DNA of 48,237 bases from a virus. Positions 12,560 through 48,237 of the stretch are shown here, one piece after another. Under the pieces are notes generated by a model. The model was not told the origin of the DNA. It worked only from the letters and a program-made list of their open reading frames with translations, and searched no databases. The translations under genes were made by a program, and so were the position numbers. The stretch lies in IMG/VR virus record IMGVR_UViG_3300008114_002917, positions 1-48,237 of that record. One strand, 5' to 3'. The stretch's first letter is position 1; each line of letters begins with the position of its first letter.

Positions 12560-12562
12560 AAA

Positions 12563-13336: not shown

Positions 13337-13342
13337 AAAAAA

Positions 13343-14077: not shown

Positions 14078-14094
14078 ATTTTATTTTTATTATT

Positions 14095-18871: not shown

Positions 18872-18872
18872 A

Positions 18873-19280: not shown

Positions 19281-19289
19281 ATTATTCAT

Positions 19290-19901: not shown

Positions 19902-19904
19902 GTT

Positions 19905-23485: not shown

Positions 23486-23515
23486 AAATTTGTATAATTT
23501 AATTATATTAAAATT

Positions 23516-25724: not shown

Positions 25725-25762
25725 TTAAAATTTTAAAAAATATTTCAGATGTAAATAAACAT

Positions 25763-31811: not shown

Positions 31812-32860
31812 TATATCAAAGTTTTGGTTTTATCTGTAAATTCGTGTAAGTTATGGAACATATATTTGTTCTTACTAATTTTATTGAATTCTTCTTTGAA
31901 TAATTCATGTTCGGGATGCGAATTATCCCATACTTGTTTCGATTTAAATTCATCTTCACCGAATGTTCCCCAGTTAGTTATTTTTCCAAAGAACACCCCA
32001 ACTTTTTTTCCGAAAATTGAGTACATTATATTGTAGAATAATTCCATCTCCCTGTAGTTCGAATCTTGTACTACAAATGATGTTTTGACATATTTCAAAC
32101 TCGGAATTGTATTTATGAAATTTAAATTTTCTATAAGATTATCCCACTTTCCTCCTAATCTTGTTTTGTTTTCGTAAGTATCTTTTGTCCCAGCATCTAT
32201 ACTTATCTCACAACTTTTGACGTATTTGTGAACATTTGGCATACTATCCCACATTTCTTTATTCCACATCGATGCATTAGTATGAAAATGAATCGACTTC
32301 AGTTTAGGATATTTCTTGGGGTCAAAATTACGCAAGTAGTTTCTGAAACCTACGGATATAAATGGGTCCCCTGAACCTGTTATATATAATGTCTTAACGT
32401 CCTTGGAGTAAAAGGAATCTATTTCCTCTATTGTTTTTTCTACTCGTTGTATTCCTTTTTTATCCTCTACAATCAAATCTACTCTACAAGATGGACATTT
32501 ATAATTACAAGTCCTATCGAAATTCATTACCAAGACTTTTGGTCCTTCATTCAAAAATGGAGATTTAGGTGTAGATTCAGTTTTCAATTGGACGGGGCCA
32601 GATGTTTCACCAAAGTTGATAAGTTTACTCAAATAAGGACATAATTCTTTATCACAGTATTTGAAGGATCCATCAATTATTGATTCCCGAATGTCAGTCA
32701 TTGGAGTACTATTCCAAACTTCCTTCAAAGGAACTTCTGAGGTTTCTATTTTGTTTGGCAACCAAGATGGACAGCATGCAAAACAGACATTAGTGTGAAT
32801 CTCCAAGTTTTTGAATGGTACTGTACAAAAATATTTTTTTAAGTCTACCTCTGAGTTCAT
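31811..32860 (-). CDS. Radical SAM protein with N-terminal Cys cluster region
   Basis: 349 residues. FCTVPFKNLEIH (C12), CFACCPSW (C26, C29, C30) and FKYCDKELCP (C69, C74) form a SPASM-like cysteine set in front of the core motif CNYKCPSC (C118, C122, C125). ITGSGDP is the GGEP equivalent, and HFHTNASMW and SIDAGTKDTYE follow as in peptide-modifying and Fe-S radical SAM enzymes. It belongs to a different subgroup from the two at the left end. Its start lies after a 36-base A/T-rich gap with no Shine-Dalgarno. The substrate is unknown. Confidence 0.83.
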   Translation of the reverse strand: MNSEVDLKKYFCTVPFKNLEIHTNVCFACCPSWLPNKIETSEVPLKEVWNSTPMTDIRESIIDGSFKYCDKELCPYLSKLINFGETSGPVQLKTESTPKSPFLNEGPKVLVMNFDRTCNYKCPSCRVDLIVEDKKGIQRVEKTIEEIDSFYSKDVKTLYITGSGDPFISVGFRNYLRNFDPKKYPKLKSIHFHTNASMWNKEMWDSMPNVHKYVKSCEISIDAGTKDTYENKTRLGGKWDNLIENLNFINTIPSLKYVKTSFVVQDSNYREMELFYNIMYSIFGKKVGVFFGKITNWGTFGEDEFKSKQVWDNSHPEHELFKEEFNKISKNKYMFHNLHEFTDKTKTLI

Positions 32861-32896
32861 AGATATATAATAACAAAAATTTTTTTTTTATCATTA

Positions 32897-33721
32897 TTAG
32901 ATAGGTATTTTGACTTCACGTAAATGGTTAAAAATTGGATAACCATCCCATTTGGATTCAAATTTGTTTGGTTTTTTATCTGAAATAATTTCGGGATTAT
33001 TTGTTTTAATCCAATTATATAAATTATCAGAGACATATTGATAACCAAGTTCATTTGGATGACTACAAACAAGTGATTTCATATTTGAGTTTTCTTCGAA
33101 GTTAGGGAAAATAGATTGATTAAATTTCATCATATTATTTATATTGTGAAATTTTTCAAAAAAAGTATTTTGACGGTAATCAATTGGAGTATACAGAAAT
33201 TTGTATTTCTTGGAAATACAGTGTTCTTCTATAATTTTGACATAAAAAATTTGTTCAAGAATTGGGTCCATATCTAAATCATTTATGAATTTCAAATATT
33301 CTTTTCCGATTTCGTAACTATGAACATTGTAAATGTTTTTTTCCATCAGTGGGTTTATATTCATCAGTGTGGAATCTCTGTAGAATGAAAATCTAGTTGG
33401 AGATGGTAATAACCAAAGAACTAAAACGTCAAACTCGTCAGAAAAATTTTTATTATAGTATTTTTCAAACCAAACTTTTACATTACCTGAGGTGGATGAC
33501 CCACCGAACCCTAAATTGATTAGAGTATCATAATTGAGTTGTTTTTGAAGATGTGATGGCCAAGAGTATCTGTGAAATCTTTCTTTACTAATGTAATAAA
33601 CTTCTTCTGTTTTTTTATACTTTGTTTTATCACCAACTTTGTATGAGACAACTTCAGGGTCATAACATCCTACTCCCTCTGTGAAGGAACATCCCATTGT
33701 TATAAGAAGTTTTTTTTTCAT
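32897..33721 (-). CDS. SGNH/GDSL-hydrolase-fold protein
   Basis: 274 residues. MGCSFTEGVGCYD (S12), NLGFGGSSTSGNV and VCSHPNELGYQ give all three blocks. It is the eighth SGNH protein of the window and unrelated in detail to the tandem triplet, lacking their N-terminal TYNELGFRGD module. RFHRYSWPSHLQKQL is the usual segment naming the companion of block I in phage SGNH proteins. Its ATG overlaps the stop of the DSBH gene upstream (ATGA). The 36 bases after it are A/T-rich and hold no gene. Confidence 0.75.
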   Translation of the reverse strand: MKKKLLITMGCSFTEGVGCYDPEVVSYKVGDKTKYKKTEEVYYISKERFHRYSWPSHLQKQLNYDTLINLGFGGSSTSGNVKVWFEKYYNKNFSDEFDVLVLWLLPSPTRFSFYRDSTLMNINPLMEKNIYNVHSYEIGKEYLKFINDLDMDPILEQIFYVKIIEEHCISKKYKFLYTPIDYRQNTFFEKFHNINNMMKFNQSIFPNFEENSNMKSLVCSHPNELGYQYVSDNLYNWIKTNNPEIISDKKPNKFESKWDGYPIFNHLREVKIPI

Positions 33722-34164
33722 ATAAGAGTGTTTTTTTTTACATTCATTGGGTTATTGTGCATAAATCCAACTAAGGTATATCTATTTCCAATACAATTAT
33801 TGACTTTATGGTTTTCTTCACCTGAAAAATAAATCATATCTCCTGTTTTGGGGGTATAGCTTATTTTGTCAAAAATTACTTCACCTCCTGTAAAATTATC
33901 GTTAAGAAAAATAATGAAAGACCAAGGATTTACGTGCCGATGTGGGATAGTAGACTGATTTATTGATTCGTTGAGCATTTGAACTCTAAACTTCTTGAAT
34001 ATAAAGGTTGAAAACCTATCGGTAATTAATTCTCTTCCTATTAAATTAATAAAATAAAATTTGTAAATATCATCATCGCAATACTGGTCGTTTTCTATTT
34101 TATATAAATCCGTAAAGTACTCACATTCTGATGAATTCAAAAAATTTTCATAATAAACAATCAT
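33718..34164 (-). CDS. Small DSBH oxygenase-like/cupin protein with altered iron site
   Basis: 148 residues. PHRHVNPWSFIIFLND gives H75-x-H77-x-N79 where an HxD pair would sit. GGEVIFDKISYTPKTGDMIYFSGEENHKVNNC gives the distal H119, and IGNRYTLVGF gives R128. The fold matches the 2OG-Fe(II) oxygenases next door, but the acidic ligand is missing, so it may be a three-His cupin-type metal protein or bind metal without oxygenation. It is a close paralogue of the next gene to the right. Confidence 0.65.
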   Translation of the reverse strand: MIVYYENFLNSSECEYFTDLYKIENDQYCDDDIYKFYFINLIGRELITDRFSTFIFKKFRVQMLNESINQSTIPHRHVNPWSFIIFLNDNFTGGEVIFDKISYTPKTGDMIYFSGEENHKVNNCIGNRYTLVGFMHNNPMNVKKNTLI

Positions 34165-34171
34165 TCCACAT

Positions 34172-34648
34172 TCAAATTAATTTTCCTGTTTTCACGTTTA
34201 AAGGATTATTTTGCATCCCTCCGATGAGAGTATATCTATCACCGACACAATTGTTAAGTTTGTGCCTCTCTTCCCCAGAAAAATAAACCATATCTCCTGT
34301 TTTTGGTTCATATTCGATATTATCGAAAACTAATTCTCCCCCAATGAAATTTTCATTCAGGAAAATAACAAACGACCATGGATTCACATGAGTGTGTGGA
34401 GCTTTACATTGGTCTATAGATTCGTTCACCATTTGTATTCTTAATGTTTTGAAAATATAATTTGGAAATTTATCGGTTTCAAATCTATTCTCTGTCAAGT
34501 CGTTATAATAAAATTTTAGCACATCATCATCACCAAATTTATTATACGTTTGAATCCATTCCATAAATTCTACATCATTTGATTTGAACAAATCAATATA
34601 ATATTCACATTCGGGGTTACTTAGAAAATTTGGTATGTAAGTTATCAT
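34172..34648 (-). CDS. Small DSBH oxygenase-like/cupin protein with altered iron site
   Basis: 158 residues from ATG 34648 (MITYIPNFLSNPECEYY), chosen because the paralogue at 33718 starts MIVYYENFLNSSECEYF. The longer frame to 34753 runs into the upstream gene and looks unrelated. PHTHVNPWSF gives H85-x-H87-x-N89, EERHKLNN gives H129 and VGDRYTLIGG gives R138. The missing Asp is the same as in its sister, so the change is conserved between duplicates. Substrate unknown. Confidence 0.66.
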   Translation of the reverse strand: MITYIPNFLSNPECEYYIDLFKSNDVEFMEWIQTYNKFGDDDVLKFYYNDLTENRFETDKFPNYIFKTLRIQMVNESIDQCKAPHTHVNPWSFVIFLNENFIGGELVFDNIEYEPKTGDMVYFSGEERHKLNNCVGDRYTLIGGMQNNPLNVKTGKLI

Positions 34649-34653
34649 GTCTA

Positions 34654-35208
34654 TTATATCAATGAGGTATTTAATAAAAATTCCGAAGTTATGTTTCCTG
34701 CAATAACAATTCTGTCGATAGTTGCTGTCGGTGTGTGTGTTGGAACATGCCATAAATATCCAGGAAAAAAAATGATTTCTCCTTCTTTTGGGGTTATTGT
34801 GCGAATGGAATTATCATTATCTTTTATTAATAAGTCACCTTCTCCATTTTCTAAATTGGGAGGTATTTGTACATAGAAAACAAATGTGTAATCAGTTTTT
34901 AATTGGGTTCTACCACCATCTAATTTTGAGTGCGTGTGCCAAATATAATTTGATGGAGGTAAATTTTTTGTTTGAATGTAGGACCACATACTGACCGCAT
35001 AATCCACCTTTTCAGTTTCTTTCAATTTAAAATATTGATTAACGACAAAATTTTTGATGGAGTCAAATTCTTTACAACAAAACATTAATTCATCTGTGTT
35101 TTGTGATGTATTACCGTTAAGTTGTTTTAGAAAAGTTTTATTTTTATAAATTTTTTGAACTATTTCTTCTTTATTGAACTCCCAATTATATTTTACACTG
35201 TGTGTCAT
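34654..35208 (-). CDS. Cupin/2OG-oxygenase-like DSBH protein (HTH subtype)
   Basis: 184 residues. IWHTHSKLDGGRTQLKTDYTF gives H91-x-H93 and a possible D97; WHVPTHTPTATIDRIVIAGNI gives H154 and R166. The EGEIIFFPGYLWH stretch is the usual second beta-helix face. It resembles phage proteins labelled 2OG-Fe(II) oxygenase, but here His replaces Asp in the first pair. It aligns with the protein at 35743 (KSDYTFTFYVQ; PTPK..ELRVVYAGNI). The gene is preceded by a 25-base A/T-rich gap. Confidence 0.65.
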   Translation of the reverse strand: MTHSVKYNWEFNKEEIVQKIYKNKTFLKQLNGNTSQNTDELMFCCKEFDSIKNFVVNQYFKLKETEKVDYAVSMWSYIQTKNLPPSNYIWHTHSKLDGGRTQLKTDYTFVFYVQIPPNLENGEGDLLIKDNDNSIRTITPKEGEIIFFPGYLWHVPTHTPTATIDRIVIAGNITSEFLLNTSLI

Positions 35209-35233
35209 TTTTTTTTCGGTAAATTATAACTCA

Positions 35234-35734
35234 TCATAATAATTTATTATTCGATGAAATCACATCTTCGTGATTTATAAACATTACAACACTTCTCCGA
35301 GTCCCACTAGTCACAATTTTTACCTCGTGGTCTCTATTAGCTTCGAAAACATAAGGGACCCCAATTTCTTTGGTGAGGACGTATTTTGGATTATATACAA
35401 TGAAATCTCCGCCAGTATAGTCATCATTTAAATGAAATCCAGTGACCAAATATCTATTTTTACCAAATGCGTTTCGGTATTTAATGTCGTCATCGTTATG
35501 ACGAAGAAAAAAATCATTCGTATCGTATCGTAAAATTTGAAATTTTTGATTGAAAGAGTGGAATTTTAAATTTAAAGATTCTGAAACCCAATTCAATAAC
35601 TTGATTTTTATTGGGATAATGATTTCTGATTCGATAATTTTGACCTCATAACTTCTATCTCTTTTTCGGAACTCGTTTAATCCATAAAAAAGACTTTCTA
35701 TTAACGAAATTTCTTCTGATGTTATTAATTTCAT
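35234..35734 (-). CDS. 2-oxoglutarate/Fe(II)-dependent oxygenase, small phage type
   Basis: 166 residues with a full triad: FFLRHNDDD gives H79-x-D81, NRDHEVKIV gives H136 and SGTRRSVVMF gives R146/R147. GGDFIVYNPKYVL follows the first pair as in prolyl-hydroxylase-like enzymes. It is a paralogue of the oxygenase at 30782. It sits between two HxH-type DSBH genes, so the block mixes complete and altered iron sites. Confidence 0.77.
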   Translation of the reverse strand: MKLITSEEISLIESLFYGLNEFRKRDRSYEVKIIESEIIIPIKIKLLNWVSESLNLKFHSFNQKFQILRYDTNDFFLRHNDDDIKYRNAFGKNRYLVTGFHLNDDYTGGDFIVYNPKYVLTKEIGVPYVFEANRDHEVKIVTSGTRRSVVMFINHEDVISSNNKLL

Positions 35735-35742
35735 TAGGGAAA

Positions 35743-36330
35743 CTAAATTAAATTGAGATTTTTAGGGGATTTATCCAAAAAGTTATATGCAATATTTCCC
35801 GCATAAACTACCCTTAATTCGTCATTTTTCGGCGTTGGTACTGCCGTATGATACATGTCTGCAGGGAATATAAATAAGTCCATTTCCTGAGGTAAAAATT
35901 TATGAATATTTCCATCCTTGGTCTTAAAAACTATTTTTCCTTCATCTTCTGTCAAGTTACTTGGTTGTTGTACATAAAACGTAAAAGTATAGTCAGATTT
36001 TATAGTAGATCTATTTGTACTTGAGTGTAATAGAAGATGTTGATGCATATACGTCATATCAAATCCTTTTTTTTGTGTGTAAACCCAAGAATGTTTCGCG
36101 TAATAATTAAATTGACTCCCAACAATTTCTCGTTCAATCAAGTCTATTATAAAAGAATCAATCGATTTAAATTCGGAACATTCAAATTCAATCCAAATAG
36201 AATTATCATCTGGAATTGTGCTAATTTTTTTGTTTTGTGCAAATCTGTATAAAAAATCATTTTTGGTAAACAATCCGTGGTACTTACTTCTGTAAACAAA
36301 TTCATTTTCTCCGATTCGTATTTTTTCCAT
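35743..36330 (-). CDS. Cupin/2OG-oxygenase-like DSBH protein (HTH subtype)
   Basis: 195 residues. TYMHQHLLLHSSTNRSTIKSDYTF gives H96-x-H98. IFPADMYHTAVPTPKNDELRVVYAGNI gives H161 and R173. The match to the gene at 34654 covers the second half well and the first half poorly. The His-x-His pair is kept, so this subtype probably uses three histidines. It starts one base before the SET gene's stop codon and has no leader signal. Confidence 0.65.
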   Translation of the reverse strand: MEKIRIGENEFVYRSKYHGLFTKNDFLYRFAQNKKISTIPDDNSIWIEFECSEFKSIDSFIIDLIEREIVGSQFNYYAKHSWVYTQKKGFDMTYMHQHLLLHSSTNRSTIKSDYTFTFYVQQPSNLTEDEGKIVFKTKDGNIHKFLPQEMDLFIFPADMYHTAVPTPKNDELRVVYAGNIAYNFLDKSPKNLNLI

Positions 36331-36931: not shown

Positions 36932-39670
36932 TTATTTGTTATGTACTAAAATTTTATTTGCGTAAAAATTGTGGTTATCTTCTACCGAAATGATGTATGT
37001 TTGAGTATCAGTTCGACTTAATTCGACTATAGATTCAATTTTTGATGTTGTATTGTCAGACAGATTTACAAAATCTCCAATTTTAATTTCAATTACATTG
37101 GAAGGTAAATCGTATCTTTCATTAGTCCAATCTGGTTTGTAAGACGCAAGTTGTAAACCATTAATATAATACGGGTGGTCAAAGGTTGAAGTAATTTGAA
37201 TCCCATTCGATAAGGTGTATTCGACTAAGTCATCATGTATTGGTGTGAAAGTGTTTGTTACTTTTTTTAATTCCTGTGATTTTTTTTCTTCGTTATACGA
37301 TAGTATCATATCACCGATTTGTATATCTTCTATGTGCTTTTCAACGCCGTCTTCTACTGAAATTTTTGTTCCTGATATGAAACAGAATTTGTTGTGAGTT
37401 AGAATTCCGTTTGCAAAAAAGTTATGATTATTCGACACTTCAAATATGAAAGTTTGTGTTGGGTTCGATTTTAACTCTTCAATATTAACAATTCTTGTAT
37501 TGGAACCATCAACTAAAGTTACACTATCTCCAAGTTCTATTTGTGAAACATTTTCTCCAAGATTGTATCTATCATTTGTCAAAAGAGGTTTATATGATGC
37601 TAAATTGAAACCATTTACAAAATATGGATGGTCGAAAGTACAAACTAATTCAGTTCCGTTTTCAAATGAATACTTTACAATATCATCATGAATCGGGGTA
37701 ATTACGTTTGTAACTTTTTGTTTTTCTTTAGTATTATTTTGAATATTCAATGAAATGACTTCATCTCCAACACTAATTTCTTCAATTGGTTTGACTGTAC
37801 CATCCCCCATTTCAATCATGGTTCCTTTAACAAAACAAGCTCGATTATGTACTAATATATCGTTTGCAAAATAATTATGGTTTATCTCAATTTTGGATAG
37901 ATTATAAACTCTAGTTTCTTCGTTTAATAATGTAATCTTCTCTAAAACTGCATTAGTGTTGATAAGTTTTACTGAATCTCCTATCTCAATTTTTAGCACT
38001 GGAGAATCTAATTGATATAAGTTGTTAGACAATACATTATCAAACGCAGACCACCCTTTACCATTCACAAAAATTGGATGGTCTAATGTGGATTTCAAAG
38101 TACCTCCATTATCGAACTCATAGATTACTATTTTATCTACTTTTTTGGAAAATATATTTAAAACCTTATTGATTTTTGTTTCATCATTTTTGAAGTCGAA
38201 TGAAACAATTGAATCCCCAACTGAAACATCTTCAATATTTTTTGTTGTACCATCCTCCATTTGAATTTTGGTTCCTGCCACAAAGCAAGGTGCATTGTGA
38301 GAGACTAAACTATGAAAGGCGGTGGATCCATTTATAATGTATGTATCTGAATCTTCAACATCTAATTCAACAAAAGATAATCCACTGTCTGACGACACGT
38401 AAAAGTTTAATTCATCAACTTGAATTAATTCGCCGTTCAAATCGTAAAGATAATCTGTGATCGCGTTAATTTCGGCAATGTATTTATAACTACTTTTGTT
38501 AGTTAAACTGTTGTATACCAAATATTTTTTATTAATTCCTGAAAACAAAGAATCACTATCTACCACCATTTCCATCATAGAGTGATATTTCAGATTTGCA
38601 ACATCTCTGAAAACTACACTCGAAGTTGTGAGAAAAGACCCCTCAGGGAATTCACTACCCTCGTAGTTCCAAGTCAATGAATTCAAATCAGACTCACTTT
38701 GGGGTGATCCACTTATCGAATAAGATTGGATTTCATCACCAACTTGAATGTTGGAAATTTCTTCCCAAGTTTGGTCCGCCATTAGAACTTCATGTGTAGA
38801 TAAGATGCCAGCCGAATCATTTTTGAACATGTTTGTTGCAAATTCGTAAAAATGGTAATCTTTTATCTTATTTGAATTTTCTTCTAAATTAACCGTAGTT
38901 GGTAATTCGAATATCGAACTTATTTTGTAACTGTGTAGAGGAAGTATATCCAAATTCGAACCATAAACTATTGCAAAAAATCTTATGGATGTGACGTGGT
39001 TATTTTCATCAACGGTGGACGAATGAAAATGGTATTGTTCAATAAGAGTATCTTCAGAAGATTTACCTTGAATAAAATTATTCCAATTTTCTTCAACTGT
39101 TCCATTCTCAACGTTTATTTTGTAAAAATTAATTGGATTGAATGATTCATAAACGTCTTTTATCGTGGCATCTGGTATATTAGAGGCATTTACTTCTTTT
39201 GTCAATGTGTCAAAAGTTCCTAATGATGAAGAGTGATAATATCCAACACAATAGTCGGTGATTGAATCTTCAGTGAATAGGTTATAAACATTCAATCTAT
39301 TTTTACAATAAACGCTATCAAATATTGCGGTTTCGTCGTAAGCCAATCTCAACACAAATTTATCTGCTGCATCTGGAACTGATGTCGGATAGATTGAATT
39401 AATGTTTTCATCATGTAAGGTGATTGAAATAAGTGGTAAGGTATTATTCACCTCTTCTATCAATTTATTAACAAAATCAATGTGCAAAAATGGTTTATAA
39501 ATAATGTCTAATGTTGTGATGTTATTAGAAGACAATACAGTCAAGAATCCATTGAAATCAAAATTTACTAATTCCTGATCTATAAACCCTGTATCCGTGT
39601 TCAGTTCTAATAATCTTAAGTTTCCGTTAGAGTCTTTGACAAAATCGGCTGAGAATACTGTTCCTTTCAT
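36932..39670 (-). CDS. Tandem Hint (hedgehog/intein-like) protein, three intact and one degenerate domain
   Basis: 912 residues. Residues 1-280 are a unique N-terminal region with LRLLELNTDTGF at 18-29 (resembling the metal-binding end of ATP-grasp proteins). Then come four Hint domains: 288-459 (first Cys lost; ILSTHEVLMADQTWEEISNIQVGDEI; ends SHN), 462-609 (starts CFVAGTKI, ends VHN), 612-760 (starts CFVKGTMI, ends THN) and 763-911 (starts CFISGTKI, ends VHNK at the very C-terminus). Each intact domain has the internal TxDHP block. The linkers are two residues, and no nucleophile follows the final Asn. This fits bacterial intein-like self-cleaving domains rather than splicing inteins. What is released, and why, is unknown. 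Confidence 0.85.
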   Translation of the reverse strand: MKGTVFSADFVKDSNGNLRLLELNTDTGFIDQELVNFDFNGFLTVLSSNNITTLDIIYKPFLHIDFVNKLIEEVNNTLPLISITLHDENINSIYPTSVPDAADKFVLRLAYDETAIFDSVYCKNRLNVYNLFTEDSITDYCVGYYHSSSLGTFDTLTKEVNASNIPDATIKDVYESFNPINFYKINVENGTVEENWNNFIQGKSSEDTLIEQYHFHSSTVDENNHVTSIRFFAIVYGSNLDILPLHSYKISSIFELPTTVNLEENSNKIKDYHFYEFATNMFKNDSAGILSTHEVLMADQTWEEISNIQVGDEIQSYSISGSPQSESDLNSLTWNYEGSEFPEGSFLTTSSVVFRDVANLKYHSMMEMVVDSDSLFSGINKKYLVYNSLTNKSSYKYIAEINAITDYLYDLNGELIQVDELNFYVSSDSGLSFVELDVEDSDTYIINGSTAFHSLVSHNAPCFVAGTKIQMEDGTTKNIEDVSVGDSIVSFDFKNDETKINKVLNIFSKKVDKIVIYEFDNGGTLKSTLDHPIFVNGKGWSAFDNVLSNNLYQLDSPVLKIEIGDSVKLINTNAVLEKITLLNEETRVYNLSKIEINHNYFANDILVHNRACFVKGTMIEMGDGTVKPIEEISVGDEVISLNIQNNTKEKQKVTNVITPIHDDIVKYSFENGTELVCTFDHPYFVNGFNLASYKPLLTNDRYNLGENVSQIELGDSVTLVDGSNTRIVNIEELKSNPTQTFIFEVSNNHNFFANGILTHNKFCFISGTKISVEDGVEKHIEDIQIGDMILSYNEEKKSQELKKVTNTFTPIHDDLVEYTLSNGIQITSTFDHPYYINGLQLASYKPDWTNERYDLPSNVIEIKIGDFVNLSDNTTSKIESIVELSRTDTQTYIISVEDNHNFYANKILVHNK

Positions 39671-39718: not shown

Positions 39719-40390
39719 TTATCTATTATCAATGTATACCATAACTTCATTATAGTACGGAATAAAATCCTCATTCCAAATTGACCAAGTAATATCAACT
39801 CCATCGAAAGAAAATATTTTGAAGTTTGGGAAAAATCGTAGGTAAACATCTCTAAAAATCTTAAATTTTTCTTTAAGTTCAGGAGTTCTCAAGTGCCACT
39901 CACCTGATATTTTTTTTACGTTGTTTTTAATCCAAAACAAATTATCTAAAGTGAAAATCTCATACTCACCACTTTCACAATCCGTTTTCAAAAAATCAAT
40001 TTTTTTGATTCCATAATCTTCAATAACTTTTTTAAATGTTGTTGAATATAGTTTGTGATTCCCTGTCAAATCGAATACGTCTGTAAAATTAAATTCTCCT
40101 ACAATGTTACTAATGCCCTTATTGATATGAGTTACGTTCCCATGCCTTGTGTTAAGGACCAATGTTTTGAATTCTTCGTAACTTGGTTCGAAGGCAAAAA
40201 CTTGTGACGGGGATTTATCTAATATAGAAAATGTGAATGGCCCCAAACTTGCTCCAATGTCAAAAACTACATCACCTTCTTCAACTCGAACATGTCTTTC
40301 ATAAATTTTATCAATAAAAATTTCTTGTTCTACGGTTTCGCGGAATCCATTATAACATTTTGGTTCCCATACAAATTGGTCTAAGTTCAT
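39719..40390 (-). CDS. FkbM-family methyltransferase
   Basis: 223 residues. VVFDIGASLGPFTFSIL (D44-IGA) is the SAM-binding loop; FAFEPSYEEF, IDFLKTDCESGEYEIF and VKKISGEWHLRTPE follow the FkbM block order. The family transfers a methyl group to a sugar or related hydroxyl. The gene sits directly after the five-module enzyme (ATGA overlap at 40387) and before the Hint gene, from which 48 A/T-rich bases separate it. It is a second FkbM copy, better conserved in the SAM loop than the one at 16243. Confidence 0.8.
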   Translation of the reverse strand: MNLDQFVWEPKCYNGFRETVEQEIFIDKIYERHVRVEEGDVVFDIGASLGPFTFSILDKSPSQVFAFEPSYEEFKTLVLNTRHGNVTHINKGISNIVGEFNFTDVFDLTGNHKLYSTTFKKVIEDYGIKKIDFLKTDCESGEYEIFTLDNLFWIKNNVKKISGEWHLRTPELKEKFKIFRDVYLRFFPNFKIFSFDGVDITWSIWNEDFIPYYNEVMVYIDNR

Positions 40391-43300
40391 TTTAATAAGT
40401 GTTGTATTTTATTTATCACCATTTCAGATGTTATTGATGTGTGACATTCAAATTGGCGAGTTGTTCCTTTATGAACTGGACACCAATTCCAATCTCCTTT
40501 ATCAAACTTGTAGTTAGGGTTATTCCAGCAACTGTTACAAACACTTGGATTCGTAATTCTTGTGCAATTCGATGTGAATTCGTGGTCGGCTTCTGTAAAG
40601 TTACTAATCATAACCACATGTTTTCCAATTCCCCATGACAACCAAGACAATCCACTTGAGAGTCCAATAAAAAATTCACTGTGGTGAATAACATTGATTG
40701 TATTTTCAATTGAAGTATCTTGCAATTTTGCACAGTTGTCGAAGGGATTATTTTCTTTCGAGACATTGACAACTTTATATCCTATTGAGTTTAGATAATT
40801 TATCAATTGTTGCCAACCTTCTTTAGTCCAAAATTTACATCCCGCTGTGGAATTTGTTGCAATTGTAATGTACTTCTCGGAGTATGGTCTTTCACCTATT
40901 TTATAATGGATTCTTGGTTTGATTTCACTAAAAGGTAGACCCAATATATTCGATGCGGCTTTTTGTAATGGGATTGTATTAGGTAATTCAGGTTCCTTGC
41001 TTTCGTCCCAAAACCACCCAAGATTATATTGCCCAAAAATATTGTGTACTACAGTTCCTGGTTGGACAAATTCTAATTCAGGATAAACTTCCTTAAATAG
41101 ATGGTTCCAATACGTTGAAACAACTACATCACAGTTGTGAGCTTTTTTAAATTCGAGTGCATAAGGAATCCAAGAAACAGTATCACCCAAAGATTTACTA
41201 TCGAAGTTAATGAAAACCCTTTTATCACTATAATTCAAAGTTTTATCATATATCAAAAGACCATTTTCATAAATCTTTGTATTCCATTTAGTAAAGTATT
41301 GTCTATTCAATCTAACCCAATGGTTTGACTTTATTTTGTTGTCATAATGACAAACACCTTTTTCATCGAAAAATTTGACTTCGAACTCACTATCACTTTC
41401 TCCAATTATTTCTAAGAAAGGTTGGGTGATGAAGTATTTTTTGATTTTCACATTCGAATTTTTTTTCACGTTCTTTGTTGGTGATTGGGTAATAATTGAT
41501 TTATATAAGTCGTAATGTTTTTTAGCAAATTCCGAGGTCATTCCATCCAAAACTTTATAATTTCGTGTTGATGAAATGAGCCTTTTCAACAAATTGACAT
41601 TCGAAAGTAGATCATTCTCGAGTGGGCAAATAAGTCCCTTGAACATTCCAACATATTGAGGTAAGTCCCGAGCAATAATTTTAAGACCGAATGAAGCGGC
41701 TTCTCTGATTACTAGAGGATTACATTCCCAAGTGGAATTGAACATCAAAACATCTGAAGCTTTCATGAAAGTTTCAACATCACTTCTTTCGCCCCAAACT
41801 TTGACGTTTGAAGGTAAATCGTTCATCAACGGTCCCCAATAGCTTTCAAAGTTGGATGCTTGATTACCAACAAAATGGAATTCTACATTGTCATTTTGGA
41901 ACTGTCTTGCAATTTCAAGACCTTCTTTCTGATTTTTTCCTGAAGTCCAAAGCCCAACATTAAGGATATGAACCTTCGAAGTGTCCAATCCCAAAGTTTC
42001 CAAACAACGAACTTGTTCTTCACGAGTTCTGAATTGATTTTCAATCGGAAATTCGAAAACCTCTTTCCGAGACGGCATGTTTTTGAATGAAACCTCCTTA
42101 TGGTATGGAGTGCAAAAAGCATATGCATCTGGATTGAACAATTTGGAAGTGTTGGGATCGAACCAAATATTATGACAAGTCTCGACAACTCTCCATGTTC
42201 TATCATCAGTATATAGTGCGTTTTTCAACTCATTTGGCATTTTATTAAATGAATCGAATCCCTCCACCATTTCATCAATATGAACAACATCTATTTGATT
42301 TTCATTGATGATGTCTATAACCTTCATTGAATTTTCAACAGTGTGATTACCCAAAGTATTAATTGTCCAAAATCTATTTTCAGGTATGAGTTGTTTTATC
42401 CTATCCCTCTGAACTGTATAGAGAGTTGAATATTGACAAAACTCCGCAACATAAATTTCAACATCAGAATACAATGAAATTAAAGATTCGATTCTCTTTA
42501 ATAGATAAGATGGCATCCCACCCGTTGAAAGATGGGGTGCCAAAAATAAAATTCTAAGTTTTTTTTCCGATGTACTATTGAAAATATCACATTCGGGGTC
42601 ATCCCAAGGGGCGTTTTCTAACAGTTTTTCAGAAATTGAAGTATCTCCCACTTCGAACTCCAATTCTTCAATTTCATCCATTGTTGTGTCTACCTTCAAC
42701 TCGAATCTTGGGTAGTACTCCCTCTTTACTGAAGCGTAATAATCTAAGTATTTGAAATCTCTACCTAATATTAAATTTTGGATTTCCATTCTATAATTTG
42801 GAATTCCGTAAGCGTCGGCGACTATTAGACCGTGTAAGCTTGATGATAATATTTTTTCACACTCTAATACTTCATCTATAAATTCATACAATCCTGATGT
42901 TACGTTTATTATTTTGAATCCCAAATCTTCTAAATTATTAATACATTTCAAAGAAAAATTACTATTGTAATCTACATAATGAGGAATTAATCCATACTTA
43001 TATTTTTTTTCCACTTTTGGATGGTATATTTTCGGGAATAGAAGAGCTGGATCTCCGTATTTTTCGGGTACATCCCAACCTGCTTCTAAAAGTAACCCTC
43101 GAGTTATAGGACCTCTTACAGAGTAAACCTTTTTTGGGATTTCGTTAAAACCAATTTTACTTATAAGACCTGTACCCCATACATAATCATTTGGTTGAGT
43201 GAACACCATTGAGCTTCCTGCACCGATTATTTTACCATTTTTAAAAGGGACTAAACCTGCTTCGTCAAAATAAAAAACATCATCATCGTTTAATTTTTTT

Positions 43301-44808
43301 CCTGAAAAATGTTCTAAAATGAATTTAGTGATGATGTCCCCCCAGTTTTTGCTTGGGTCTATATTAGGATATTTTCTTACATTTTCATCTATATAATTGT
43401 ACTTCTTGATTTCATCTACCATTTTCTGCATCACCTGTGGATTTTTTTCTCCATGGAAAAAAAGAAGATGTGACTTTTCTTCTGGTACTCTCAACCAATC
43501 ACCCAAAAAATTAAACACTCCGAACCCTTTGTATTCCGCTTCCTCATACATTTTTTTCACAGTCTCGAGAGTTCCATTAACATATATGTAAGGTAAACCC
43601 TTGTCAATTTTGTATTTCCACAACAAAACGTTTGAAATGGTTTCCTCGTTGAATGGGGCGTACAAATCATTATTTTTCAAAACCTTCGGATTATTACACA
43701 TCCAATACCATTCATCCAAAAAGTCATATGTATTTTGACCAGCAACAAAATATCCAGTCTGTCTATAATATTTTCGAACCGACTGGTCGACATTGAATAA
43801 TTCGCAAGCTGGATGTTCCAATGTAGATTCCCATGTACCACCTAATGATGGACCTCCTCCACCTCTACCATTATGTCTCAAATACTCATATATTCCCTCA
43901 ACAAAATATGGGTGTGTGGATTCCTCATCATAGTGGGAGAATATTGTGTCTACCAATGGGGTTGCGACCGAGTCACTGTCAACGTAACAAACTGTTTTCG
44001 CATGTTTTTCTAATGCATCTTTGATGATTAGAGGTCTTTGAGATAAGATTTTATATATTGTAGGGTTTTCTCTTTTAATATAGAAATTTTCATTGTTTTT
44101 GATGTAAAGGTCATCTGTCAATTGTCCAACATTACAATTCCATTTTATTGTTTTAGTATTTGGTACTTCGACTTTTCTATCTGAATCTATGAGATAAACT
44201 ATAATTGGTAATTCACTGAATTCTCTGATTGATTTCACACATTCAGTTACTATGTCGAAATAGTTTTCGGTTGAATATAATACGTAAGACTTTTCATCTT
44301 TCGGTTTTTGATAGGATATGAAATATCCATAGTAACGATTTGAATAAATCATCATTAGTTGGGGAAATCTTTTTCCCATGATGTCCAATGTTAGATCTGG
44401 TTGTAAATGAGTTTCATATACATTTCCATAATATTCGCCTTGTTCCATTGTGTATGGAACGGCAACCAAACATCTTTTACCCGAATCATAAATCTTGGAA
44501 ATCAATTCAGTTGCATCTTGAACTGAAAGGTGTTCTAATACATCTCCCAATATAATAAAATCATATCCGCTAATGTCAAAATCAACAATATTTCCCAAAA
44601 AAACATTATCATATTTATTTTTCAAATCGAACTCATGGATGTATGGTTCCCAAATTTCTACACAATCCATCTTATATCCAAAATCTCTTAACAATTCTGA
44701 ATATGTGCCACGACCTGGTCCAACATCTAATATTCTATGTTCAACGGGAACATGTTTTTGTAAGTAAGCTTTTACTTCTTGTTTAAAAAAACCATAACTT
44801 TCTGGCAT
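40387..44808 (-). CDS. Five-module glycan enzyme: methyltransferase, GT-A-like, pyruvyltransferase, GT4, TibC-like O-heptosyltransferase
   Basis: 1473 residues. 1-170: SAM methyltransferase (ILDVGPGRGTYSELL, LGDVLEHL). 175-470: GT-A-like transferase with a DxD-type VCYVDSDSVATP at 273-284. 487-720: polysaccharide pyruvyl transferase (NWGDIITKF, SSSLHGLIVADAYGIP). 750-1110: GT4 (LAPHLSTGGM, NVGLWTSGKNQ, STWECNPLVIREAASFGL). 1120-1473: resembles autotransporter O-heptosyltransferases such as TibC (KSLGDTVSWIPYALEF, GCKFWTKEGW, SSGLSWLSW). It ends with a C1424-x2-C1427...C1443...C1455 set comparable to the iron-binding cysteines of that family. The neighbours are a heptosyltransferase gene and a Thr-rich surface protein. 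Each module is standard; the fusion is the unusual part. ATGA-coupled to the FkbM gene. Confidence 0.85.
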   Translation of the reverse strand: MPESYGFFKQEVKAYLQKHVPVEHRILDVGPGRGTYSELLRDFGYKMDCVEIWEPYIHEFDLKNKYDNVFLGNIVDFDISGYDFIILGDVLEHLSVQDATELISKIYDSGKRCLVAVPYTMEQGEYYGNVYETHLQPDLTLDIMGKRFPQLMMIYSNRYYGYFISYQKPKDEKSYVLYSTENYFDIVTECVKSIREFSELPIIVYLIDSDRKVEVPNTKTIKWNCNVGQLTDDLYIKNNENFYIKRENPTIYKILSQRPLIIKDALEKHAKTVCYVDSDSVATPLVDTIFSHYDEESTHPYFVEGIYEYLRHNGRGGGGPSLGGTWESTLEHPACELFNVDQSVRKYYRQTGYFVAGQNTYDFLDEWYWMCNNPKVLKNNDLYAPFNEETISNVLLWKYKIDKGLPYIYVNGTLETVKKMYEEAEYKGFGVFNFLGDWLRVPEEKSHLLFFHGEKNPQVMQKMVDEIKKYNYIDENVRKYPNIDPSKNWGDIITKFILEHFSGKKLNDDDVFYFDEAGLVPFKNGKIIGAGSSMVFTQPNDYVWGTGLISKIGFNEIPKKVYSVRGPITRGLLLEAGWDVPEKYGDPALLFPKIYHPKVEKKYKYGLIPHYVDYNSNFSLKCINNLEDLGFKIINVTSGLYEFIDEVLECEKILSSSLHGLIVADAYGIPNYRMEIQNLILGRDFKYLDYYASVKREYYPRFELKVDTTMDEIEELEFEVGDTSISEKLLENAPWDDPECDIFNSTSEKKLRILFLAPHLSTGGMPSYLLKRIESLISLYSDVEIYVAEFCQYSTLYTVQRDRIKQLIPENRFWTINTLGNHTVENSMKVIDIINENQIDVVHIDEMVEGFDSFNKMPNELKNALYTDDRTWRVVETCHNIWFDPNTSKLFNPDAYAFCTPYHKEVSFKNMPSRKEVFEFPIENQFRTREEQVRCLETLGLDTSKVHILNVGLWTSGKNQKEGLEIARQFQNDNVEFHFVGNQASNFESYWGPLMNDLPSNVKVWGERSDVETFMKASDVLMFNSTWECNPLVIREAASFGLKIIARDLPQYVGMFKGLICPLENDLLSNVNLLKRLISSTRNYKVLDGMTSEFAKKHYDLYKSIITQSPTKNVKKNSNVKIKKYFITQPFLEIIGESDSEFEVKFFDEKGVCHYDNKIKSNHWVRLNRQYFTKWNTKIYENGLLIYDKTLNYSDKRVFINFDSKSLGDTVSWIPYALEFKKAHNCDVVVSTYWNHLFKEVYPELEFVQPGTVVHNIFGQYNLGWFWDESKEPELPNTIPLQKAASNILGLPFSEIKPRIHYKIGERPYSEKYITIATNSTAGCKFWTKEGWQQLINYLNSIGYKVVNVSKENNPFDNCAKLQDTSIENTINVIHHSEFFIGLSSGLSWLSWGIGKHVVMISNFTEADHEFTSNCTRITNPSVCNSCWNNPNYKFDKGDWNWCPVHKGTTRQFECHTSITSEMVINKIQHLLK

Positions 44809-44815
44809 ATTATTT

Positions 44816-45175
44816 TTATATCAATTCTAAAACTTTATTGAAGACTTGTGAAACGTTTGGGTGACACACAAATTCTGATTTATTTTCCAAACAACCAACA
44901 AGTGGGGGAATTCCTCGAATGGAATTCCAATGTTTCACACCATACCGCATGTCAGAGGCACATGCAATCTTACATTCACCATCAACATAGTGATATTTGT
45001 AATCTTGGGTTCCATTTCTGAATGGAGATCTTAATTTCCAATTTATTGAGCCACCAAGTTGTATAATTTGAGCGTCAGTTGTCCCTGCCAAATGTAACAA
45101 TCCAGAGTCCATCGTAATCAATGCTGAACTTTTTTGTATTAACCACCATGTTTGTGATATGGTTGTTTGGTTCAT
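44816..45175 (-). pseudogene. GT9 heptosyltransferase-like, C-terminal fragment
   Basis: 119 residues. TTISQTWWLIQKSSALITMDSG with LLHLAGTTDAQIIQLGG is the GT9 ADP-heptose-binding block, followed by YHYVDGECKIACASDMRYG and CHPNVSQVF. It begins with ATG at 45175 inside the last codons of the N-terminal fragment (ATGA), so restart translation is possible. GT9 enzymes normally have about 25-30 residues between the VVS strand and the TTIS segment, and these are absent here. An internal deletion plus frame change is the simplest reading. Confidence 0.72.
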
Positions 45176-45669
45176 GAAACCACAGCAATTCCTTGGTCAT
45201 TCAACATAGAAGTTAGTAATTTCCATTTTTCAACATCCCAAGTTCTCGATGCCCAACTTTGAACAGGGTGAATAAGGACAAATTTATTTGGCAAATTTTC
45301 GATTGGGTTCCATTCGTCAGGAATAAAGTCTGTGTGACATTCCTCAGGTAATAGTGAAAACCCCAATCCCGATGCATGAAACTGTCGGATGTCCATTGTA
45401 TTATGTCGTAGTCCTAATTTGTATTGGTTTTCCAAATTCGGAGCAAAACTCACTAATAATTCATAATTTTCTGCCAAATCTTCACGACTAACTTCGGAAG
45501 TATCAAAAACTTTGTCTACATAGTTATTGTTTTTGAAAATTTCGGGATGGTCTGTCAGTACAGATATTTTTCTACCGTACGAAAAAAATAGTTTACGAAG
45601 TGCTGGTGTTGATGAAATTGTGTCTCCGAGTCCTTTGGACAGATGCAAATCCAATAATGGGTCTTTCAT
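45172..45669 (-). pseudogene. GT9 heptosyltransferase-like, N-terminal fragment
   Basis: 165 residues. LHLSKGLGDTISSTPALRKLFF is the N-terminal glycosyltransferase Rossmann motif of ADP-heptose:LPS heptosyltransferases; VLIHPVQSWASRTWDVEKWKLL is the linker block before the C-terminal domain. The frame stops at TGA (45172-45174) after GIAVVS. With the following fragment the total is 284 residues, below the usual 310-360. It may be a broken gene or a two-chain enzyme. Its start is preceded by a CT-rich leader lacking a Shine-Dalgarno. Confidence 0.72.
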
Positions 45670-45705
45670 ATTGGAGAAATATACGAAAGACGGTTGGAAA
45701 ATCTA

Positions 45706-45879
45706 TTATTTACTTTTCTTTTTTTCTTCTAATCGATACAATTTCATCAGTTTTAAAGAATCTTTGTATTGTTTTTCTAATTTGTCTATTTCTTCAATTG
45801 GGACACAAGATTCACAAGCAAGATGGTATTGTTCCTCAGCTTCCTTAATAATGTTTTCAATTGTCTTTAAAAGTTTCAT
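45706..45879 (-). CDS. Small coiled-coil-like protein (57 residues)
   Basis: Reads MKLLKTIENIIKEAEEQYHL, then ACESCVPIEEIDKLEKQYKD and a lysine-rich tail. Heptad-like spacing of L/I and charged residues suggests a coiled coil, with one CxxC in the middle. It is the first gene of the minus-strand block. The open frame, the A/T-rich leader and its filling of an otherwise empty 319-base gap support it, but no family is recognised. Confidence 0.5.
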   Translation of the reverse strand: MKLLKTIENIIKEAEEQYHLACESCVPIEEIDKLEKQYKDSLKLMKLYRLEEKKKSK

Positions 45880-45988
45880 ACAACAATAAATATTCTGTTG
45901 ACTCCACTTTATTTGTTTTTTGATAAAACTATATTACTGAATGTGTAAAAACCTGTAATCAGGTTATTTATATAGGAACAATACTTTC
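45880..45988. promoter_or_regulatory. Divergent intergenic region with late-promoter-like box and small hairpin
   Basis: 109 bases between the minus-strand block and the plus-strand Thr/Pro gene, so both operons probably start here. A perfect hairpin AACCTG-TAAT-CAGGTT lies at 45950-45965. Directly after it TATTTATA at 45965-45972 reads TATAAATA on the minus strand, the consensus of T4-type late promoters, 86 bases before the small gene. A match is expected by chance several times in sequence this A/T-rich, so it is weak support. No clear plus-strand promoter was seen. Confidence 0.3.
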
Positions 45989-47971
45989 ATGGGAATAATA
46001 TCAGTAAATTTTTATAGTGGAGGAACGGATTTATATCTTAAGGCACTAACGTGTGGGGCAACATCATATAATTTACAATTTGATGGTGACCCAGGTAATC
46101 CTAATCCTAACTTCTGTGACCTTGATGAATTATTGTCTTGTGACATCACACCATTCGAATCTCAAATATCTGTAGGTCAGGCATTTTATCTGGCATCAAG
46201 TGGTCAAATAAGGGAATTTATTAGACCTTTTGCTGCTCCAATAGCATATCAGAACGATAGTTTTGCGGGAGGGTGCCAGCCTTGTGCTTTGGAAACTCCC
46301 ACACCTACTCCTACTCCGACAGTAACTCCAACTCCGACTTCAAATATCGGAGAATGTCATAGGTTACAATCGGCTCCATTCGGAGGATGTACATTCGTTT
46401 ATATAAATCAATTTGGTTCCACAATAACCCTAAACATTCCACCAGAAGACGTAGGATTGTGTTTCACAGAGTGTGTAGTATCAGTAATAAGTGATGACTG
46501 TGGGTTTGTTAATGAATTAATTCCTTGCAATGACCCACAATGCGATTGTAGCGCCGTCACACCGACGCCAACACCAAGTATTTCGGAAACTCCTAATCAA
46601 ACTCCAAGTAATACACCAACACCAAACGAGACTCCTTCACAAACACCTACTAATGGAACTCCAACACAAACTCCTACTCATACCGAAACTCCAACTCCGA
46701 CACCAACAACAACTCCAACTCAAACCTTGGGTCCTGGTCAATGTTACATTTTACCTATAGCTCCATTTGGAGGATGTAGTGTTCAATATGTCAATCAATA
46801 CGGGTCAACAATAACTCAAAATATACCAGCTGAAGATGCGGGGTTATGTTTTACGCTTTGTGCTGTATCAATAATTAGTGATACGTGTAATTTCACTGAT
46901 TTAGGGGTTGATTGTTTAGACAGTCAATGTGATTGTAATCCTCCGCCTCCAAATACTCCAACTGCAACTACCACTGAAACTGCTACGCCAACAGAAACAC
47001 CAACTCAGACCGCTACTCCAACAGTAACACCAACTCCAAGTGTTACAATTGGTTTGACACCAACTGCTACTGAAACTTCAACACCTACACCTACTGAAAC
47101 CCCAACTCAAACCGCAACTAATACTCAAACTCCCACAGAAACACCTACTCAAACTTCAACTGAAACTCCAACTCAAACCGCAACTAATACCCCAACCCAA
47201 ACCGAAACTCCAACGCAGACTCCTACTGAAACCGCTACTCAAACTCCTACAGCGAGTATTACTCCTACGAACACAGAGACTTCTACACCTACTCCAACGC
47301 AGACTTCTACAGAAACTCCAACTCAAACACCAACTGAAACTCCGACTCAGACTGCTACGAACACGTCTACACCAACAGAAACTCCAACTCAAACCCCTAC
47401 AGTAACTCAAACTCCCACAAATACTGCAACTCAGACACAAACTCCTACTAATACATCAAGTCAGACTCAGACTCCAACCCAAAGTCCTACTCCGACAATG
47501 AGTAAAATCGTACAGTTCCAAGACTGTACAAATGGGTCTAATATTTTCAGGTTCGGAGGACCAGGTATTCCTGATGTAATTGGAAATACCTACTACATTA
47601 CGGGCAGTACAGAATTTGAGGGATGTGCAACTATTGTAAGTGGATTCACCACTGGAACTTTATACAATTCGCTTGGAGTAACATTCACTCAAGTTCCAAC
47701 TTGTGCGGACTCTTTATGTCCAAGAACAGCTTTGACTGCGAGTGTTATAGTTTTGTCGAGTTTTCTGGTCCAGGTGGTCCCGATTTTGGAGCTCCTGATT
47801 TTGATAATTGTATATTATGTGTTCCAACTCCAACACCAACCAATACTCCACAACCAACGCCAACAAATACTCCAACAGTATCTGCATCACCGTCAGCTTG
47901 TACATATTCTGATTTTTGTTTATATACCACCCTTCCTGCGTTCTCAGGATACAACGGGAACTACAGTTTAG
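45989..47971 (+). CDS. Thr/Pro-stalk and cysteine-module surface protein (fibre- or mucin-like), frameshifted near the 3' end
   Basis: ATG 45989 starts an N-terminal domain of about 100 residues (CGATSYNLQFDGDPG; CQPCA). A Thr/Pro stalk covers 103-117, then a 67-residue cysteine module at 122-188 and a second stalk at 191-246. A near-identical module follows at 251-317, a long T-P-T/E-T-P-T-Q stalk at 319-503, and a third globular part starting KIVQFQDCTNGSN. No signal peptide is present, which suits a virion protein. After residue 581 (about 47730) the frame becomes nonsense (LTASVIVL...), while the sense sequence continues in the -1 frame, so the last 80 residues listed to 47971 are an artefact of an indel. 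The Thr density makes O-glycosylation plausible. Confidence 0.8.
   Translation: MGIISVNFYSGGTDLYLKALTCGATSYNLQFDGDPGNPNPNFCDLDELLSCDITPFESQISVGQAFYLASSGQIREFIRPFAAPIAYQNDSFAGGCQPCALETPTPTPTPTVTPTPTSNIGECHRLQSAPFGGCTFVYINQFGSTITLNIPPEDVGLCFTECVVSVISDDCGFVNELIPCNDPQCDCSAVTPTPTPSISETPNQTPSNTPTPNETPSQTPTNGTPTQTPTHTETPTPTPTTTPTQTLGPGQCYILPIAPFGGCSVQYVNQYGSTITQNIPAEDAGLCFTLCAVSIISDTCNFTDLGVDCLDSQCDCNPPPPNTPTATTTETATPTETPTQTATPTVTPTPSVTIGLTPTATETSTPTPTETPTQTATNTQTPTETPTQTSTETPTQTATNTPTQTETPTQTPTETATQTPTASITPTNTETSTPTPTQTSTETPTQTPTETPTQTATNTSTPTETPTQTPTVTQTPTNTATQTQTPTNTSSQTQTPTQSPTPTMSKIVQFQDCTNGSNIFRFGGPGIPDVIGNTYYITGSTEFEGCATIVSGFTTGTLYNSLGVTFTQVPTCADSLCPRTALTASVIVLSSFLVQVVPILELLILIIVYYVFQLQHQPILHNQRQQILQQYLHHRQLVHILIFVYIPPFLRSQDTTGTTV
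46295..47497 (+). repeat. Thr-Pro coding minisatellite (ACN-CCN based) interrupted by two 67-residue modules
   Basis: Three stretches, 46295-46339, 46559-46726 and 46943-47497, are built from ACx/CCx codons in short units encoding TPT, ETPTQ and NTPTQT. Between them the segments 46352-46552 and 46739-46939 encode two similar cysteine modules (GECHRLQ...CDC and GQCYILP...CDC). The units vary in codon choice, so it is an old, drifting repeat rather than a fresh slippage product. Such arrays change length by recombination and lengthen or shorten the protein stalk. Confidence 0.8.
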
Positions 47972-48237
47972 CGGGTACTTATAATTCTAAAAATTATTAT
48001 TCGGGAGACGGTACGACTTATGCTGTTATTTATTATACATCTCAATATTGGTGTTTGAGTACCTCATTGGGAGGAAGTTGTTTGTTGAGAGGAGCCTACC
48101 CTTGTAGATCACAATGTCCTGATATTTCAGCAACTGATTTCACGGGAGGAATTTGTCCTACACCTACACCAACTCCAATCGATTGTTCGACATTTGATTT
48201 CAATGCTTACTTCGATTGTGATTGGGAACCAATTCCT
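47716..48237 (+). pseudogene. Continuation of the Thr/Pro-cysteine surface protein in the -1 frame, 3' partial
   Basis: From about 47731 the frame reads FDCECYSFVEFSGPGGPDF, then a new Thr/Pro stalk (CVPTPTPTNTPQPTPTNTP), and a cysteine-rich globular part (CTYSDFCLYTTLP; YWCLSTSLGGSCLL; CPDISATDF). A further PTPTPTP stalk follows, open at the window edge. This continues the repeat logic of the gene at 45989, so the two belong together and a single base is missing between about 47724 and 47732. ATG 47716 lies in this frame but is probably not a real start. The C-terminal end lies outside the window. Confidence 0.75.

Follow-up and report, generated by a model that had tools for sequence, protein, structure and literature searches.

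The IMG/VR virus record IMGVR_UViG_3300008114_002917 represents part of a larger phage genome, and its whole length of 48,237 bases is the window analyzed here. An open reading frame (ORF) near its right end (40387-44808, minus strand) encodes a 1473-residue enzyme. A first-pass annotation, made from the sequence alone, had described it as a mega-enzyme ending in a TibC-like O-heptosyltransferase module and had proposed that the phage glycosylates its own virion. The ORF was confirmed, and Pfam searches recovered a methyltransferase, a pyruvyl transferase, a GT4 transferase and a C-terminal GT9-like module in it. The N-terminal methyltransferase module (44299-44808, minus strand, as are all modules) matches Methyltransf_23 at residues 21-108 (2.2e-6). 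The following module (43369-44298, residues ~171-480) gave no Pfam family match and no solved relative in a structure search; it is present in relatives, a diverged version takes its place in close relatives, and we presume that it is a GT-A glycosyltransferase. The polysaccharide pyruvyl transferase module (42589-43368) matches PS_pyruv_trans at residues 559-672 (2e-12) and is absent from most relatives of the enzyme in a module comparison across 83 loci. The GT4-type glycosyltransferase module (41404-42588) matches Glycos_transf_1 / Glyco_trans_1_4 at residues 940-1052 and shows a weak PglA-type structure match (E 1e-4). The C-terminal module (40390-41403), with a catalytic Asp and a four-Cys iron finger, gave in Pfam only a weak GT9 match at residues 1309-1416. 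The methyltransferase and pyruvyl transferase modules bear out, on the gene side, the earlier suggestion of a methylated and pyruvylated glycan.

The terminal module is almost certainly a homologue of the TibC/Aah-type protein O-glycosyltransferases, judging from sequence scores and a predicted structure. It scored 274.5 bits against the NCBIfam model TIGR04414 (Aah/TibC, protein O-heptosyltransferase; cutoff 200), whereas the best lipopolysaccharide (LPS) heptosyltransferase model reached 19.6 bits, and among proteins of solved structure TibC alone gave a real sequence match (E 1e-48). An AlphaFold model built from 15 sequences (pLDDT 87.5, pTM 0.87) comprises seven or eight N-terminal strands, arranged as a beta-barrel, and a GT-B-like fold, as in TibC. 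The 21 best structure matches of this model were all TibC chains (query TM 0.79-0.88 over 351-388 columns). The next structures were GT9 enzymes (WaaC, 1psw and 3tov) at TM 0.40-0.52, with WaaC at 0.40-0.46 and heptosyltransferase II (1psw) at 0.52. WaaC and WaaF thus share a distant GT9 fold with the module but reach only 13-20 bits, and an LPS heptosyltransferase identity was ruled out. The equivalents of the catalytic Asp110, of the sugar-site residues Lys230 and Trp305 and of the four iron-finger cysteines are present in 99 of 99 viral modules, the window included; the cysteines of the window module (C288, C291, C307 and C319) are spaced 3/16/12, the same as in TibC. The equivalent of Thr226, also of the sugar site, is likewise kept in the window and in 99/99 viral modules, and is Ser in the autotransporter-side rows. 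The TibC-type assignment of the last module therefore holds. The module groups with the protein O-heptosyltransferases, so the proposal survived the outcome that the first-pass annotation had named as fatal to it, clustering with LPS enzymes only.

Viral contigs were scanned three times for relatives of the module: a first scan gave 247 (80 kept), a second with the module of Microcystis phage Mel-JY01 gave 334 (80 kept) and a third gave 3 loci; a viral contig scan with a bacterial module (L229) as query gave no match. The resulting set of 166 loci, including three phage records, was reduced to 98 groups at 90% identity. In 83 of the 92 groups whose ORF is uncut, no more than 30 residues separate the module from the C-terminus; the other nine carry ~200-234 residues after it, and in 72 of the 92 at least 150 residues precede it. 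Upstream modules are exchanged between close relatives. Identity between the window and L005 is 99% for the last module and 96% for the GT4 module, but 29% for the next one, and L005 has no pyruvyl transferase there. The DNA match of the window to three further relatives (G001, G017 and G003) ends at a common point (42563-42565), close to where the GT4 module begins. A constant C-terminal end with exchangeable upstream modules has the look of a machine that varies a glycan. In a tree of the modules, the window falls among 43 rows that are all viral and lie apart from the autotransporter-side bacteria; the tree was made by a quick method and has long branches and a midpoint root, and its viral rows do not form one clade. 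Genes near the module in other loci include a tail sheath gene (L073), a tail-fibre-like gene (L058), an endolysin-like gene (L069) and, in Mel-JY01, a gene annotated 'structural protein'. Our own gene calling also places a Gly/Ser/Thr-rich ORF 1.7 kb from the module's ORF in Mel-JY01, at a position where the deposited annotation has other genes.

What accompanies the module in viruses is most often a protein built of Gly-[Ser/Thr]-x triplets. In one locus (L031), the neighbouring gene encodes a 3117-aa low-complexity protein of GSS/GTS triplets, with 42% Ser, 29% Gly and 13% Thr. A Ser/Thr-rich stalk ORF occurs in 54 of the 89 groups whose flanks extend for 8 kb or more, and in 51 it is no further than 5 kb from the module; 48 groups have one of Gly type and 13 one of Pro type. 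Runs of at least five consecutive Gly-[ST]-[STA] triplets were found in the flanks of 44 of the 89 non-redundant viral loci, within 5 kb of the module in 41. On 16 long contigs, the distance to the nearest stalk of Gly or Pro type is at most 5 kb on 11 and at most 9 kb on 14, whereas 20% and 28% of random positions, respectively, come as close; in G013 and G015 the stalk is ~100 kb away on the linear record. This proximity is only modest when measured against each contig's own random positions (Fisher 0.0037), is stronger in a binomial test, and comes from related genomes. Strict Gly-[Ser/Thr]-[Ser/Thr] arrays occur in 28 of 31 module-bearing viral records that had been selected for length, two of them with a single match, and the reversed control gave 0. 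The 735 kb phage LR756501 (L085) has 1278 overlapping matches to the strict pattern. The SLS repeats of autotransporters (TIGR04415), the usual partners of this enzyme family, were found neither in 24 module-bearing phage records, most of them possibly fragments, nor in the window, and an SLS acceptor in the phage was rejected.

The association was also examined in reverse. Viral contigs were picked by an eight-triplet run while the module was ignored (at least 120 rows, 80 loci listed), and records of at least 26 kb were scored. The module is encoded in 23 of 50 records with Gly-Ser/Thr arrays, versus 2 of 49 records picked by five Thr-Pro pairs (p 1.1e-6); one of those two also belongs to the Gly-Ser/Thr set. 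The difference is seen below 100 kb (15/39 vs 1/44) and at 100 kb or more (8/11 vs 1/5). A terminase scan, intended to provide a control matched for size, yielded mainly short contigs among its 80 loci, and 19 of the 32 records of at least 10 kb encode the module; its query terminase came from a module-bearing phage, so the scan is no independent control.

The same pairing was observed in bacteria. A bacterial scan with the window module alone as query gave no match, and a scan of bacterial and archaeal genomes with an alignment gave 44 loci, two of which lacked a module ORF by our gene calling and were dropped. SLS repeats occur in 8 of 20 module-bearing bacterial or archaeal genomes, all eight from Acetobacteraceae or Trinickia; by side of the tree, they occur in 0 of 9 viral-side genomes and in 8 of 11 others (missing from L252, L260 and L261). 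On the viral side, a Ser/Thr-rich ORF lies at most three ORFs from the module in 7 of 19 loci, compared with 4 of 134 more distant ORFs; on the other side it does so in 1 of 23 loci, compared with 0 of 91 distant ORFs, the units of these comparisons being loci and ORFs, respectively. A triplet-repeat protein directly adjoins the module in six loci (L224, L229, L230, L232, L234 and L235). These neighbours are short, consist of GTS, GSS or GTA triplets and, by eye, several have an apparent signal or lipoprotein leader. Across 16 whole genomes, strict arrays were present in 7 of 8 genomes from the viral side, all but one of the eight having been chosen for a Ser/Thr-rich-looking neighbour, and in 1 of 8 autotransporter-side genomes, with 0 in the reversed control. 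In the genomes of L224, L229, L234 and L235, every strict array listed lies within ~1.5 kb of the module. Among 151 genomes of the family to which the L230 genome belongs, 12 have the module, 16 have a loose array and 6 have both (p 0.0003), with no more than 0.7 kb between array and module in 4 of these 6. A triplet-repeat protein is the module's immediate neighbour in seven of the 12 loci, L230 and L232 again among them. Two further loci of the triplet type, L356 and L359 (a partial gene), have no such neighbour, which gives 7 of 9 for the type, and the other three (36-39% identity) have neighbours labelled SLS-like by eye. Taken with the viral counts, these results make it likely that this TibC-like subfamily pairs with Gly-[Ser/Thr]-x repeats.

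The window itself contains no Gly-[Ser/Thr]-x array. In three close relatives whose maps match it (G017, G003 and G001), a GTS/GSS protein is encoded beyond the position of the window's left end, by 6.3 kb in G017, 7.1 kb in G003 and 6.3 kb in G001. G017 is 88-95% identical to the window over the four longest matching stretches of DNA. The protein runs off the contig in G017 and G003; in G001, which has a second GTS protein elsewhere, the distance presupposes a circular record, which a split match suggests. With a GTS/GSS protein beyond the window edge in three relatives, the island appears to be bounded by that protein on one side and by a Thr/Pro protein on the other.

This Thr/Pro protein was the acceptor favoured by the first-pass annotation. 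Its gene (45989-48237, plus strand; phrog_15511) begins with a Thr/Pro-dense ORF of 660 aa, in which residues 321-515 include 88 Thr, 32 Pro and 11 Ser. A Pfam search gave no match for it, and the coding pattern for (Thr-Pro)3 has five matches in the window, two of them overlapping, versus 0 in 100 shuffles. The Thr-dense stalk protein described earlier is thus present, but the 660-aa ORF is not the whole of it: the frame is lost near 47.74 kb, and homology continues in another frame off the contig end. The gene is uncut in L005, L009, L010, L011 and L013 (973-1101 aa), and the loss at the frame break amounts to ~21 residues relative to L005 and L009 and to fewer relative to L011. Between this gene and the enzyme lies a GT9-type glycosyltransferase gene (44816-45669, minus strand), which had correctly been called broken. 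It forms two ORFs in the window, with ~26-30 residues missing between the matching parts, and is a whole ORF of 312-318 aa in six of six relatives compared (L005, L006, L009, L010, L011 and L013). The frame losses in both genes may reflect either biology or an assembly artefact.

If the module glycosylated the adjoining Thr/Pro stalk, the product would be a mucin-like virion spike. The neighbourhood does recur, since 18 of the first 83 loci have a Thr/Pro protein close to the module, and some bacterial partner repeats are GTA or GTT, which makes Thr a possible acceptor for enzymes of this subfamily. The reverse test points the other way: co-occurrence of the two genes, which had been named as a check, stands for the neighbourhood but not for Thr-Pro records in general, and the Thr/Pro stalk is a weak candidate for a general partner and did not hold up as the specific one. 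In addition, TibC modified Ser, not Thr, in the mapped peptide reported in the sections available of PMC4358343, and the Thr/Pro stalk is Ser-poor. The Thr/Pro protein is therefore a possible acceptor that we do not favour, and a virion spike of this kind seems unlikely. The broader proposal of virion self-glycosylation fares better: tail sheath, fibre-like and structural genes as well as giant repeat proteins near the module make it plausible, and from the gene content we consider it somewhat the more probable state of affairs for the phage of the window.

As to the donor sugar, genes that cluster with HldD, the N-terminal part of HldE (HldE-N) and its C-terminal part (HldE-C) follow the module in five loci (L066, L068, L069, L076 and L077). 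A nucleotidyltransferase gene of the window (23051-23485, plus strand) clusters with the HldE-C-like genes. It resembles both glycerol-3-phosphate cytidylyltransferase and the heptose-1-phosphate adenylyltransferase domain of RfaE/HldE, misses both curated cutoffs, and scores better as the former. An ADP-heptose-type donor may be used by the window module.

Based on the module family, its predicted fold and catalytic residues, the modular swaps, the triplet-repeat association in phages and bacteria, and the donor-like genes in some relatives, we infer a reaction, a donor, an acceptor residue, an order of steps and a product in the virion. The window is probably part of a large phage's fibre-and-glycan island, in which a modular enzyme glycosylates the phage's own GTS/GSS fibre with a glycan that is varied by swappable modules. 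The TibC-like module would start the glycan by placing an ADP-heptose-type sugar onto Ser/Thr of Gly-[Ser/Thr]-x triplets in a fibre protein that the phage makes in the cytoplasm of its host. Extension and capping would follow, by the GT4 module, the presumed second transferase of no known family, the pyruvyl transferase and the methyltransferases. The acceptor gene would lie just outside the contig, as the GTS/GSS repeat protein 6-7 kb past its left end in the three relatives, and the neighbouring Thr/Pro protein would be at most a second acceptor.

Several observations weigh against this interpretation. For the window itself, the weakest link is distance: in its relatives, ~46-49 kb separate the GTS gene from the module, which has the Thr/Pro protein closer by. 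The association is also incomplete, as 3 of the 31 module-bearing viral records have no strict array, and 27 of the 50 array-picked records, many of them fragments, have no module. A viral clade of 16 groups with stand-alone modules of 382-385 aa has no stalk ORF by our threshold in the fetched flanks; one member, L328, has seven triplets 6.2 kb from the module. The samples of the reverse test were not random, its two patterns are of unequal length and the phages are related, and the phage counts in general are phylogenetically correlated and so not independent. Among the bacteria, the genome of L233 has no strict array, and those of L223 (~6 kb away), L230 and L232 have theirs elsewhere. The reversed loose pattern also occurs in 16 of the 151 genomes, three of them module-bearing, and with such a background the co-occurrence count alone is weak. 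The donor-like genes that were scored are all under the curated cutoffs, the three of L077 at 168, 138 and 92 bits and the HldE-N-like gene of L069 at 128 bits.

The remaining points concern the module. Arg at the position of Arg286 is kept by 20 of 20 modules from the autotransporter side and by 6 of 20 other bacterial ones, but by only 2 of 99 viral ones, and the window has Thr there; in TibC, Arg286 binds sugar and its replacement abolishes or largely diminishes activity (PMC4358343, available sections). With Arg286 replaced, the donor may differ from that of TibC. The segment that bears the beta-hairpin thumb, required for the TibC dodecamer according to the same text, has 38 residues in the window and 37-45 in viral modules, versus 48 in 20 of 20 autotransporter-side rows, and the model shows no two-strand hairpin at that position. 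The module thus belongs to the TIGR04414 sequence family but falls outside the stricter definition of an autotransporter heptosyltransferase by Arg286, thumb and SLS partner. It could therefore have kept only the fold and use another nucleotide sugar and another acceptor, with the Gly-Ser/Thr link a by-product of lineage or of shared fibre loci. The replacement of Arg286 in 97 of 99 viral modules, the shortened thumb and the correlated phage counts all speak for this, but the triplet-repeat pairing recurs in bacterial genomes of several lineages and donor-like genes stand beside the module in five loci, so we consider a retained fold with a different chemistry improbable. We give a similarly low probability to an island that alters host LPS or exopolysaccharide, against coinfection or in adsorption, with the module aimed at a host surface protein or glycolipid. 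Such a role has been published for pelagimyophage fibre islands with rfaE and UDP-glucose 6-dehydrogenase genes (PMC7029224, as excerpted), and the window has many nucleotide-sugar genes; the module, however, belongs with the protein O-glycosyltransferases and tracks phage-encoded repeat proteins. The host could nevertheless be the target of the island's remaining genes.

Glycosylation of a GTS/GSS fibre by the phage's own enzyme would resemble several known systems in part. The phage module shares with the bacterial autotransporter heptosyltransferases TibC/Aah (BAHT; TIGR04414; PDB 4RAP, 4RB4) the family score, the N-terminal beta-strand domain, the GT-B-like fold, the Asp, Lys and Trp residues and the four-Cys spacing. 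It differs in being the C-terminal part of a multi-domain enzyme, in the replaced Arg286 and the shortened or missing thumb, and in its partner repeats, which are Gly-[Ser/Thr]-x triplets with no SLS repeats in the phage records tested. Phage virion glycosylation is already known from mycobacteriophages (Freeman et al. 2023, as cited in PMC12619734), where virion proteins carry glycans made during infection, an idea that the genomic association extends to the phage of the window. The acceptors there are capsid and tail tube C-termini, according to the portion of PMC12619734 available. The pelagimyophage host recognition cluster is likewise a large variable island of tail fibres and glycosyltransferases, but its transferases were read as host LPS modifiers in the same excerpt of PMC7029224. 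O-heptosylation of autotransporters is described in bacteria only in the accessible part of a review (PMC8498110). Our search of open-access literature, as far as the returned texts extend, found no paper tying the TIGR04414 family to phages or to triplet repeats, and none on Microcystis phage Mel-JY01. A phage protein in the structure library is named 'Glycosyltransferase Aah/TibC' (A0A6J5SVC1), so the phage homology to Aah/TibC had already been noticed by annotation.

The rest of the window is rich in sugar-related genes. Glycan tailoring and nucleotide-sugar genes occupy 7956-27106 (plus strand) and encode a UDP-sugar dehydrogenase, GDSL esterases, a DegT aminotransferase, epimerases/dehydratase, a C-methyltransferase and a carbamoyltransferase. 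The carbamoyltransferase gene (25482-27106, plus strand) is split into ORFs of 80 and 447 aa and is the third broken gene in the record. An FkbM-type methyltransferase gene (39719-40390, minus strand; Methyltransf_21, 5.7e-7) is directly downstream of the 1473-aa enzyme, and its cluster is found within five ORFs of the TibC-like module in 33 of 84 sequences, the window counted. Six genes with matches to the 2OG-Fe(II) oxygenase family PF13640, four above the Pfam cutoff and two below, lie in or near a row at 30782-36330 (minus strand); these may encode hydroxylases of the Pro-rich protein or of sugars. A 912-aa protein (36932-39670, minus strand) contains three tandem Hint/intein-like domains (Pfam Hint, Intein_splicing) and ends in HNK, and a 1442-aa Thr/Pro protein of L020 has an end that resembles, by eye, that of the Hint protein. 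Elsewhere, in L313, L332 and L338 of the stand-alone clade, genes that look by eye to be of heptose-nucleotide type follow the module in an operon that includes a terminase-like gene. TibC-like modules also occur in long ORFs of two contigs binned as archaea (L231 and L245; Thermoplasmatales, Nitrosotalea), which are perhaps viral contigs within archaeal bins.

Whether these observations amount to a previously unrecognised protein O-glycosylation system we regard as an even question. Such a system would consist of a TibC-like subfamily with a Gly-[Ser/Thr]-x acceptor. In bacteria it would be a cassette of two genes, one of them for a small secreted repeat protein; in many large phages, the subfamily would form the unchanging C-terminal end of a recombining modular enzyme by which giant GTS/GSS fibres are coated. 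If so, one large branch of TibC-type enzymes would have Gly-Ser/Thr-x as its acceptor code, and the joint travel of giant GTS/GSS proteins and the transferase in phages would be explained. Many islands now read as modifying host LPS would be virion-coating factories, and many large phages would sugar-coat their own fibres. Whether the glycosyltransferases of phages act on the surface of the host or on the virion would also become a testable question.

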